The translations under genes and the position numbers were made by a program. From NCBI GenBank assembly GCA_021790195.1, contig JAJYIF010000002.1:1-64000 (forward strand): a DNA stretch of 64,000 nt. The letters run 5' to 3'. The DNA is from Nitrospirota bacterium. GTDB taxonomy: Bacteria > Nitrospirota > Thermodesulfovibrionia > Thermodesulfovibrionales > UBA9159. Of this stretch, positions 11,485 to 14,407 are shown in pieces. Position 1 is the stretch's first letter. Each line of letters opens with the position of its first letter. Under the pieces are notes generated by a model. It had not been told where the DNA came from and made no database searches. It was given only the letters and a program-made list of their open reading frames with translations.

Positions 11485-12672
11485 TCAGGGCAAAGCGCTC
11501 AGACCGTTCTTGATCTTCCAGAGGTAATACCGTTCAAAGGCGATTTTCAGCCACTTGTATCTGGCCCCGACTTTCAGGTCCGACTCCTGTCTGGGAGGCA
11601 GCACCGGGGCCGCCTTCATGATCGCTGCAGTATTGCCCATGTCCATGAGGCAGACCACATCTATAGGAACTCCTTCCGGAGGCGTTGATCCGGTAATGTC
11701 CGCCGCGATGCTCGTCGAAGCAGCCTTCGCCATCTTGACGGTCATATAGCCGGTTTTCGGAACACCTGTCGGAACCGGTGTCTGCTCAGGAGGAGCTATT
11801 GCGACGGCAACGCCGACAGCAAAGATGTTTCTATACTTCTTGTGTCTGTAGTTGCCGTCAACCGGTATGAACCCCCTCGGGTTTCCGAGATGCGCTACAG
11901 CTGGTACGCCTTTCATGGCCGGGGCAAACATCGAAAGTTTAAAGGGTATCTTTGTCCCCTCCTTCAGTTTCAACTCGCCAGACGTGATCTCCTCGACTAC
12001 GGCGTTAGTGATGATCCTGATATCGCGTTCCGCAAATTCGTTTTCCATCATCAACTTCGAATTTCTTAATCCGCCTATGCCGAAATGACCTATGAAGGGT
12101 TCAGACGTGACAAAGACAATTGGGACCTTGTGGCGTATTCTTCGCTTGCGCAATTCGGTGTCGATCTCAAACGCGTATTCATACGGCGGTCCGAAACAAC
12201 TAACACCCTGAACAGACCCGGTCACTATAGGTCCGGGATTCTCAAGGAACTTGTTCCATGTCCTGCTCGTTCTTTCCGCCTGGTCAAGGGTGAAGATACA
12301 TTCCGTATGCCCCTTTTCAGGTCCAAGACCGGGGACTTCTTCAAAGGCCAGATAGGGGCCTGTCGCTATTACGAGATAATCATAAGGCACTTCTCCTGAA
12401 GCCGAAACGACCCTGGATGCGTCAGCGTCTACCCCTTTAGCGGTTTCATGGATGAAGGTTATTCCTTTTCTTTCCAAAATAGGCTTGAGAGGCAGGGTTA
12501 TATCTGAGGCCTTTCTGCTCCCCATGGAAACCCAGGGGAGAGAGGGGACAAAAACGAATTTGTCGTCGTCGCAAAGGACCGTTACCTCGGCCCTCTTCCC
12601 AAGCATACGCCTTAATTCGAACGCTGCTGTGAGTCCTCCGAATGAGCCTCCTAAAACAACTATTCTCGCCAT
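11485..12672 (-). CDS. sqr: Sulfide:quinone oxidoreductase-type flavoprotein
   Basis: 395 residues. N-terminal FAD-binding GGSFGGLTAAFEL, a second dinucleotide fold ending in ATGPYLAF, and the three cysteines expected of SQR: Cys125 (HTECIF), Cys159 (GVSCFGPPYE) and Cys341 (VVCLMDMG). SQR oxidises sulfide to polysulfide or persulfide and passes electrons to membrane quinone; the amphipathic C-terminus (WLKIAFERYYLWKIKNG) would bind the membrane. GGGAGGG precedes the ATG. It is the last gene of the ArsR / selenoprotein / DsrEFH operon, which makes it the likely source of sulfane sulfur for those proteins. Confidence 0.85.
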   Translation of the reverse strand: MARIVVLGGSFGGLTAAFELRRMLGKRAEVTVLCDDDKFVFVPSLPWVSMGSRKASDITLPLKPILERKGITFIHETAKGVDADASRVVSASGEVPYDYLVIATGPYLAFEEVPGLGPEKGHTECIFTLDQAERTSRTWNKFLENPGPIVTGSVQGVSCFGPPYEYAFEIDTELRKRRIRHKVPIVFVTSEPFIGHFGIGGLRNSKLMMENEFAERDIRIITNAVVEEITSGELKLKEGTKIPFKLSMFAPAMKGVPAVAHLGNPRGFIPVDGNYRHKKYRNIFAVGVAVAIAPPEQTPVPTGVPKTGYMTVKMAKAASTSIAADITGSTPPEGVPIDVVCLMDMGNTAAIMKAAPVLPPRQESDLKVGARYKWLKIAFERYYLWKIKNGLSALP

Positions 12673-12713: not shown

Positions 12714-13001
12714 TTAGAACATGCCAAGCACTTTGTCTGACCGGGCCATCAGGTCTATCAGCCCGCCGTAGTCTATGTTCTTTACTCTTTCCTCCAGGTC
12801 GCCGGCCGCAAGGCCCCTCAATTTCTTGTCGTCGGCCAGTACAAATGCAGAGCCGCTGAAATTCTCGAGGTTGTCCTTCTGGGCGAAATAGGCCCCGTTT
12901 TGAAGAAGAACAATGTCGGCGCCCATTCTCTCTGCCAGCGTTACACCCCTTTTCCCCTCTGTAGTATTCGGAGCGCTTCTAATAATAACTAACATTTTCA
13001 C
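12714..13001 (-). CDS. DsrH/TusB-family sulfur-relay protein, cysteine-free
   Basis: 95 residues with the DsrH/TusB fold (MKMLVIIRSAP ... ADIVLLQNGAYFA) and a typical length. In DsrEFH and TusBCD complexes the H/B subunit is structural or holds one Cys. Here no cysteine is present at all, so this copy cannot carry a persulfide and should be structural. It lies 21 bases after the DsrF-like gene and 41 bases before SQR. Confidence 0.75.
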   Translation of the reverse strand: MKMLVIIRSAPNTTEGKRGVTLAERMGADIVLLQNGAYFAQKDNLENFSGSAFVLADDKKLRGLAAGDLEERVKNIDYGGLIDLMARSDKVLGMF

Positions 13002-13022: not shown

Positions 13023-13376
13023 CTAAAAGATCATCGTCGAGTCGGCTTTCTTGAGGAGCTGAGCTATTTCGTCTATGCTCGCAACCCTGACCCCATCAAC
13101 AATGTCCCCTTCACTGATATTGTTTTCCATAAGGGAAGACTGCTCAACCAGGACCTCCACATCCATATCTATACAATCCTTTAAGGCCGCTCCGAGGTTC
13201 GTAAAGCCGGTCCCGGTTTCGTCCTGCCCCTTTTTTGCAAGCAATGCCCCTCCGTCCGTCATTATCAGGGAGACTTTGAACTCGCCGGAGACACCGCCCA
13301 GGGCATGTCTTACTGCCTCTGCCGCATTGATGTCTCCATAGGGCGGCTTACGCAGAATCATCGCAATATGTTCCAT
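13023..13376 (-). CDS. DsrF/TusC-like DsrE-family protein lacking the active-site cysteine
   Basis: 117 residues of DsrE-family fold (MEHIAMILRKPPYGD ... GVSGEFKVSLIMTDGGALLA). At the site where DsrE-type proteins have a CxxC or Cys, this protein reads VEVLVEQSSLMENN, with no cysteine; its only Cys is in ALKDCIDMDV. It is therefore probably a structural partner of the DsrE-like subunit. Its ribosome-binding site AGGAGG overlaps the TAG stop of the DsrE gene, showing tight translational coupling. Confidence 0.8.
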   Translation of the reverse strand: MEHIAMILRKPPYGDINAAEAVRHALGGVSGEFKVSLIMTDGGALLAKKGQDETGTGFTNLGAALKDCIDMDVEVLVEQSSLMENNISEGDIVDGVRVASIDEIAQLLKKADSTMIF

Positions 13377-13387
13377 TTTATTTCCTC

Positions 13388-13744
13388 CTATGCCCCGATA
13401 TTGAGCCAGATGTCGCTTTCACCCATGGTCCTGAACAGACCCTTCAGCGACCCAACTTCGACACCGTTGAGATAATCATCCTTCGCCGCACGGCGAAAGT
13501 TCAGACAGCCGCCTCAGAGATAGACCTTTAATCCCTTGGTGATGAGTTGCGAGAACTCCTCTTCCGCATTCAGTATCCCCTTTGCCTTCTGCCCTTTCAG
13601 AAAACAATACACCCCGTCCGCCGATGCTATAAGATTCACCGTGTGTCCCTTGTTCAGCGCGGAGTCTGCAATGCGGACGGCGGTTTCCGTGTTCTCATAC
13701 GAATAGGGTGAAGTTGATACAAAGAGGGTAAATGTCTTGCCCAT
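13388..13744 (-). CDS. Selenoprotein DsrE: in-frame UGA at codon 77, UxxC motif
   Basis: Read through one UGA (13514-13516), the frame gives 118 residues, the normal DsrE length, and ends in a TAG that touches the ribosome-binding site of the next gene. Read to the UGA it gives only 76 residues and stops exactly at the active site. Around it the protein reads KGLKVYL-U-GGCLNFRR, where DsrE relatives have CxxC, so selenocysteine would replace the first Cys of a redox or persulfide site (U77, C80). A hairpin matching a bacterial SECIS begins 15 bases after the UGA. AAAGGAGGA precedes the ATG. DsrE-like selenoproteins are a known class. Function here: sulfur or selenium transfer, inferred. Confidence 0.85.
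13480..13516 (-). promoter_or_regulatory. Bacterial SECIS-like element of the DsrE gene
   Basis: After the UGA come 14 bases, then the stem CUUUCGCC, the loop GUGC and the complementary strand GGCGAAGG: 8 pairs (one G-U) closing a 4-base loop that starts with G. The loop lies 22 bases from the UGA, inside the 16-37 base window usual for SelB-binding bacterial SECIS hairpins. Confidence 0.75.
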
Positions 13745-13761: not shown

Positions 13762-14028
13762 CTATGGTAAATGCTCTGACTTACACATCTCCTGCAGAAT
13801 TATTGATTCAAGACCCTGCAGTGTTATATCGCCGCCCTTGCAGACGACCACGTCGTCTATTGCTACAGCGGGAAGTATGTTAATGAATCGCCGCTCTATA
13901 AAGGACATTTCTGACTTCTTGATTGTCTCTGTTTGGAATGTGTATTTATGTGAAAGGTCCATTACCATGGACTGAATGTTGATTCATGTCGCCCCCGGAG
14001 GATCATTGAGATATGATTTTATTATCAT
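13762..14028 (-). CDS. Thioredoxin-like selenoprotein (in-frame UGA at codon 15), SaoT-like
   Basis: From the ATG at 14028 the frame runs 88 residues through one UGA (13984-13986). The protein starts MIIKSYLNDPPGAT-U-INIQ and continues to a thioredoxin-like second half (NILPAVAIDDVVVCKGGDIT, with the cis-Pro-type LPA). Selenocysteine sits after the first beta-strand, where thioredoxin-like proteins have their active Cys. Initiation at the internal ATG (13968) would lose that strand and has no ribosome-binding site. A 6-bp hairpin with loop GGUA follows at SECIS distance. It recalls the thioredoxin-like (seleno)protein family named SaoT in databases; that match is from memory. It starts 4 bases after the arsR stop. 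Confidence 0.75.
13957..13986 (-). promoter_or_regulatory. Bacterial SECIS-like element of the thioredoxin-like gene
   Basis: Eleven bases after the UGA comes a perfect 6-bp stem GUCCAU / AUGGAC closing the loop GGUA. The loop is 17 bases from the UGA and starts with GG, as expected for a SelB-recognised hairpin. The stem is shorter than in the DsrE gene. Confidence 0.6.
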
Positions 14029-14032
14029 AGGT

Positions 14033-14407
14033 TCATTTTCCCACCGCGGCTTTTGCGTTCCTTACGCCGGGATATTTCCCTTTCTTTGTAATAGGACAGC
14101 ACGCAGGCGCGGGTAGCTTTTCGTGATAATCCTTTTTCAGAACGGTGAGAAGCTCAGGAATCATGGGATCAACCAGGAAGTAACATTTCAGCCTGCCGTC
14201 GACGTAATAATCAATGATTCCATATCGTCTCAGGAGTTGCAGGTGCTGCGATACATTCGGCTGGCTTATTTCCAGGAACCCCTCCAAATCACTCACGCAC
14301 TTCACCCCTTGCGCAAGTTCCCCGAGCAGCTTTATGCGGACAGGGTGGGCAATGACCTTCAGAAGTTCTATCTTCTCTGTGTCTGTCCTTTCAGAGAGAG
14401 AAACCAT
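14033..14407 (-). CDS. ArsR-family transcriptional regulator, first gene of the selenoprotein/sulfur operon
   Basis: 124 residues with the winged helix of ArsR/SmtB repressors (LKVIAHPVRIKLLGEL ... LEISQPNVSQHLQLLRR). Cysteines at 37, 75, 103 and 104 could sense a metal(loid), a persulfide or another thiol-reactive signal; Cys37 and Cys75 lie in the DNA-binding half, and CC at 103-104 in the tail. AAGGAGG precedes the ATG. It lies first in the operon under a strong promoter with a palindrome over the start site, so it most likely represses its own operon. Confidence 0.9.
   Translation of the reverse strand: MVSLSERTDTEKIELLKVIAHPVRIKLLGELAQGVKCVSDLEGFLEISQPNVSQHLQLLRRYGIIDYYVDGRLKCYFLVDPMIPELLTVLKKDYHEKLPAPACCPITKKGKYPGVRNAKAAVGK

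Follow-up and report, generated by a model that had tools for sequence, protein, structure and literature searches.

TsoC, a selenoprotein with the motif NEPxGxxU, is listed in PMC13188914, where the original report is cited as Haft & Tolstoy 2025, and the same paper describes a three-selenoprotein operon with TsoA, TsoB and TsoC. The literature that we searched gives TsoC no assigned role and treats it only as a selenoprotein predicted in this operon. SaoT is likewise a small thioredoxin-like selenoprotein, but its motif is UxxC (PMC13188914), as opposed to GxxU in the protein described here. Proteins of the MTH895/ArsE type (TIGR00412; Thioredoxin_3, PF13192; PDB 1ILO) have in common with this protein a short thioredoxin fold, and the DsrE-like selenoprotein (PF02635, UxxC) shares a UGGC motif in a DsrE-fold protein with its neighbour. 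Neither the TsoC family nor the DsrE-like selenoprotein is new, and the method by which they are found is known too.

We analysed a stretch of 64,000 nucleotides from a Nitrospirota genome (contig JAJYIF010000002.1), hereafter the window, which holds a TsoC-like gene just ahead of a DsrE-like gene with its own selenocysteine (Sec). The original Tso report aside, we found in the literature searched no mention of the divergent branch to which the TsoC-like gene belongs, of where its SECIS hairpin lies, of its Cys forms or of its place ahead of Sec-DsrE. The occurrence of this branch before Sec-DsrE in an ArsR-DsrEFH-SQR operon gives TsoC a testable role in sulfur (or selenium) metabolism.

A divergent branch of TsoC

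The protein scores 57.2 bits against the NCBIfam profile for TsoC (NF045708; cut-off 45), and it shares with TsoC, besides a score above the cut-off, the [D/E]PxGxxU motif, a thioredoxin-like fold and the same kind of ArsR neighbour. Its NDPPGATU differs from NEPxGxxU by a single mismatch, D for E, and both residues are common in the branch. The tree has three clades, made of the high-scoring TsoC proteins (support 99/95), the window's branch (clade 2; 86/77) and a branch with YVNDPMGKRU (clade 3). In the genome scan, members of the window's branch scored 46-58 bits versus 106-136 for the high-scoring ones, which also differ from it in having NEPxG where the window has NDPPG; the partner here is Sec-DsrE. 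No match to TsoA was found anywhere in the window's genome, and the best match to TsoB there reached 75 bits for a cut-off of 805. With TsoA and a true TsoB missing from the genome, this is not the three-selenoprotein operon of PMC13188914. The adjoining ArsR scores 34.1 bits against the TsoR profile (NF045707; cut-off 115), and the ArsR proteins that adjoin high-scoring TsoC genes in two genomes (G041 and G084) are of the same kind as the window's.

The first-pass annotation, made from the DNA letters and predicted reading frames, had suggested SaoT among the families to compare, an identity that did not hold: the protein had no hit to the SaoT profile (NF040730) with E values allowed up to 0.1, and the family is TsoC. 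The protein also falls under the cut-offs of the MTH895/ArsE profiles (22.6 versus 62 bits for TIGR00412 and 23.6 versus 24.8 for PF13192); its Sec lies on the second active Cys of these proteins, but it lacks their first active-site Cys.

The in-frame UGA and its hairpin

The gene occupies positions 13762..14028 of the minus strand, a strand that the first-pass annotation had left unnamed, and its translation from 14028 to 13762 reads MIIKSYLNDPPGATU(15)INIQSMVMDLSHKYTFQTETIKKSEMSFIERRFINILPAVAIDDVVVCKGGDITLQGLESIILQEMCKSEHLP, with INIQ directly after U15. This frame of 88 residues contains one in-frame TGA, at codon 15 (13984..13986, minus strand), and terminates at a TAG. Its ATG, at 14028, is separated by 4 nt from the stop codon that ends the ArsR gene upstream, a spacing that suggests translational coupling. 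Gene calling that takes the UGA as a stop yields a truncated frame of 68 aa (13762..13968, minus strand), whose ATG sits inside the hairpin described below and is preceded by ACATTCAGTCC-ATG, with no Shine-Dalgarno sequence. The first-pass annotation had described this mis-call correctly, and the case shows how routine annotation truncates such genes.

Relatives of the protein were found in 14 of 101 related genomes by protein search; the NCBIfam TsoC profile yielded 19, and an alignment search across the phylum (396 genomes) yielded 50, the weaker of these including other branches. The sole relative among named genomes was in a Nitrospiraceae MAG, and a plasmid search gave no match. Relatives can be aligned from residue 1 in about 30 Nitrospirota genomes. 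The alignment begins at residue 1 in all full-length copies that were read, and it takes in the segment upstream of residue 21 on which the first-pass annotation had made its case depend. N8, P10, G12, residue 15 and P53 are invariant in an alignment of 18 sequences. Across 35 full-length genes, codon 15 is TGA in 27 and TGC or TGT in eight; neither TAA nor TAG was found there in any of the 35. Every full-length homologue thus has either Sec or Cys at this position, as had been anticipated.

The codon is followed, at 13957..13972 of the minus strand, by a hairpin (GTCCAT-GGTA-ATGGAC, read from 13972 to 13957) with a stem of 6 bp and a GGUA loop. The first-pass annotation had pointed to such a SECIS-like structure 11 bases after the UGA, and the sequence agrees, with the hairpin starting 11 nt and its loop 17 nt after the codon. 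The hairpin alone has an energy of -7.0 kcal/mol and the 51-nt fold one of -9.3, for a limit of -7.5 set on the 51-nt fold. It falls within the published bSECIS limits (spacing of 16-37 nt, loop of 3-9 nt, stem of 4-16 bp, early G in the loop; PMC13188914). Taken by itself, the hairpin of the window is unremarkable, since the encoded peptide already favours it: an equal stem and a GG loop appear in 34% of synonymous versions of its coding sequence. Its significance comes from covariation among relatives. The hairpin keeps its place and register in the 13 Sec-type relatives compared from this branch, where 93.6% of cells are paired and four of the six stem pairs have compensatory changes on both sides. 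The covariation score was reached by none of 500 shuffles and was lost when the partners were slid. In the Cys forms the hairpin is missing or weak and unconvincing. The distance from the UGA to the loop differs between subfamilies (17, 24-25 and 21-22 nt) and is near-constant inside each, the window's branch having 17 nt versus 24-25 in high-scoring TsoC.

The window's genome also encodes SelB (377 bits), SelA (614 bits) and SelD (349 bits), the SelD gene itself containing an in-frame TGA, and a tRNA-Sec with anticodon UCA. Judged from these comparisons, we show that the UGA at codon 15 is read through by the host Sec machinery together with the downstream SECIS hairpin. It might instead be a true stop, leaving a pseudogene or the protein of 68 aa, for which an open frame from the internal ATG does exist. 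But the 14 codons ahead of the UGA are conserved, three of their residues without exception, the codon is exchanged for Cys and never for another stop, the stem covaries, and the internal ATG has no ribosome-binding site, all of which makes a stop extremely improbable. We put the probability that the TsoC-like gene encodes a selenoprotein at about 97%, so that the first-pass suggestion of a thioredoxin-like selenoprotein masked by a UGA gains backing from full-length homology, Sec/Cys exchange and covariation.

Two observations touch on these codons. A tRNA-Cys with anticodon GCA and the architecture of tRNA-Sec lies at G000:C36:66663-66753 (L114:3664-3754, plus strand), with 64.3 bits to the Rfam tRNA-Sec; selC*-type tRNA-Cys are known from Nitrospirae (PMC7609411), and this one matches them. 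In another genome (G390; L152:4841-4915) the TsoC-like frame apparently shifts just before the UGA, by a frameshift or an assembly error, in an operon that is otherwise intact.

Fold, active site and Cys forms

The thioredoxin-like nature of the product, proposed from the letters alone, is borne out by structure prediction. AlphaFold2 models built with ten relatives have a pLDDT of 85 and the order E-H-E-H-E-E-H of a thioredoxin-like fold, and the best PDB matches of the predicted model in Foldseek are thioredoxins; a search of PDB with the single protein sequence gave no match. Profile alignment places U15 on the second active Cys of the CxxC of thioredoxin and MTH895, Gly12 on the first, and P53 on the Pro that corresponds to the cis-Pro of thioredoxins. 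The first-pass annotation had put U at a thioredoxin-like active Cys, and this is now narrowed to the second of the two CxxC positions. Because Gly takes the first of them, the active site has one selenol. We infer a cytosolic carrier of thioredoxin fold that has a single active selenol (G12-x-x-U15 and cis-Pro53) and no conserved second Cys.

When Sec and Cys are mapped on the tree, at least two changes are required, and Cys forms are found in both clade 2 and clade 3. Five of the six clade-2 Cys forms (L093, L094, L096, L097 and L098) have additional Cys, as a pair or a cluster, immediately ahead of the cis-Pro. Sec forms do not have them, and they might provide a resolving thiol after the loss of Sec. 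Loss of the Sec machinery finds no support as the cause of the Cys forms, since SelB is above its cut-off in five of the six genomes that have them. Cys homologues are now on hand for comparison with the Sec forms.

The operon and its possible role in sulfur transfer

The TsoC-like gene is the first after ArsR in an operon with the order ArsR–TsoC-like–Sec-DsrE–DsrF–DsrH–SQR-like, all on the minus strand. The ArsR/SmtB-type regulator (14033..14407) has four conserved Cys (C37, C75, C103 and C104), which are invariant; all 16 loci that were aligned, those with high-scoring TsoC among them, have the same kind of ArsR. The DsrE-like selenoprotein (13391..13744; 118 aa; PF02635, 63.9 bits) has Sec at codon 77, in UGGC, aligned with a Cys of E. 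coli YchN. The best stem after its UGA has a loop at 22 nt, and 99 of 500 shuffles reach its covariation score; the peptide there is nearly fixed, too conserved for covariation to be informative, so that the evidence for Sec rests on the same in-frame TGA being kept in all close relatives (58-85% identity). Two such genes do therefore stand side by side, a circumstance that the first-pass annotation had held against chance stops. They are followed by a DsrF-like (TusC-like) gene (13023..13376; PF02635, 57.8 bits; TIGR03010, 36.5 bits), a DsrH-like (TusB-like) gene whose product has no Cys at all (12714..13001; TIGR03011, 42.0 bits; PF04077) and a gene of the FAD/NAD disulfide-oxidoreductase family related to type III sulfide:quinone reductase, SQR (11485..12672; NF049943, 108.9 bits; TIGR03169, 53.9; PF07992, 67.7). 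The last protein lies under every curated NCBIfam cut-off (525 bits for NF049943).

The arrangement ArsR-[slot]-DsrE(Sec)-DsrF-DsrH-SQR recurs across the order. Each of the 34 Sec-DsrE loci examined has the core of DsrE(Sec), DsrF and DsrH, in most cases together with ArsR and SQR. In these 34 loci, the slot between ArsR and DsrE holds a TsoC-like gene in nine, selD in three and most often neither. The TsoC-like genes are accessory, being present in only these nine. The slot contains a clade-2 gene in the window, G002 and G390, both clade-2 and clade-3 kinds plus TauE in G018 and G393, and, in G065, G155, G047 and G029, a clade-3 gene that is either alone or accompanied by a rhodanese-like selenoprotein or TauE; other loci have nothing in the slot. 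Other relatives adjoin SQR, DsrE or a Sulf_transp permease, and three clade-2 members (G005, G159 and G113) have no obvious sulfur neighbours.

Some of these loci include further genes. A rhodanese-like selenoprotein (VxIUMFDKRS) that is probably secreted occurs in three genomes (G047:C47:24292-24726, G029:C99:12497-12925 and G089:C87:27116-27556; L104, L108 and L107), next to TauE or a TsoC-like gene and, in two of these genomes, before Sec-DsrE; there is none in the window. In relatives (L088, L109, L110 and L145) the operon often runs on into a second ArsR, a DsrE2-like gene, an MMPL-family transporter and a LolA-like gene, which are absent downstream of the SQR-like gene of the window.

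These associations suggest that the operon probably handles reactive sulfur, and we lean, by a narrow preference, towards a TsoC-like protein that acts as a selenol sulfur carrier between the SQR-like enzyme and the Sec-DsrE relay. The SQR-like flavoprotein would produce polysulfide or persulfide (sulfane sulfur), which the TsoC-like selenol would pick up or reduce. It would then pass the sulfur to the Sec of DsrE, or regenerate it, in the DsrEFH relay, and ArsR, with its invariant and presumably thiol-sensing Cys, would induce the operon as reactive sulfur rises. Since DsrH of the window lacks Cys, DsrE is probably where the chalcogen is held. A broader and more tentative proposal is a selenium-based sulfur relay, in which two Sec carriers encoded side by side (TsoC-like and Sec-DsrE), or three in those relatives that also have the secreted rhodanese-like selenoprotein, would replace the Cys persulfide steps of the DsrEFH/Tus relay, with the four-cysteine ArsR sensing reactive sulfur. 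An ArsR with four conserved Cys could also control metal(loid) resistance by a thioredoxin-fold selenoprotein like ArsE, in line with the match to TIGR00412, which at 22.6 bits is under the cut-off. This we regard as distinctly less likely, because the annotated neighbours are DsrEFH, SQR, TauE and MMPL, with no arsenate reductase, arsenite pump or metal transporter recognised among them.

The main rival to a role in sulfur transfer is selenium handling, because selD sometimes fills the same slot. The SQR-like and DsrE/TsoC-like proteins would then act on selenide or perselenide, by sensing it, reducing it or bringing it to SelD, or else would keep toxic selenium buffered. The gene for SelD lies between ArsR and Sec-DsrE, instead of a TsoC-like gene, in G030, G048 and G019 (L112, L160 and L164), and adjoins a clade-3 TsoC-like gene in G073; the flavoprotein matches the 'Nterm_to_SelD' family (53.9 bits, under the cut-off), and DsrE has a weak match to YedF, a protein of selenium metabolism. 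Yet selD is missing from most operons, DsrEFH and SQR are families that act in sulfur relays, and permeases of sulfur type (TauE/SafE and Sulf_transp) recur next to relatives, so that we consider selenium handling rather unlikely. The sulfur reading also accommodates the Cys forms, which lie directly upstream of a TauE/SafE permease in six of six genomes; since they keep this pairing, the pathway needs no Sec in the TsoC-like protein.
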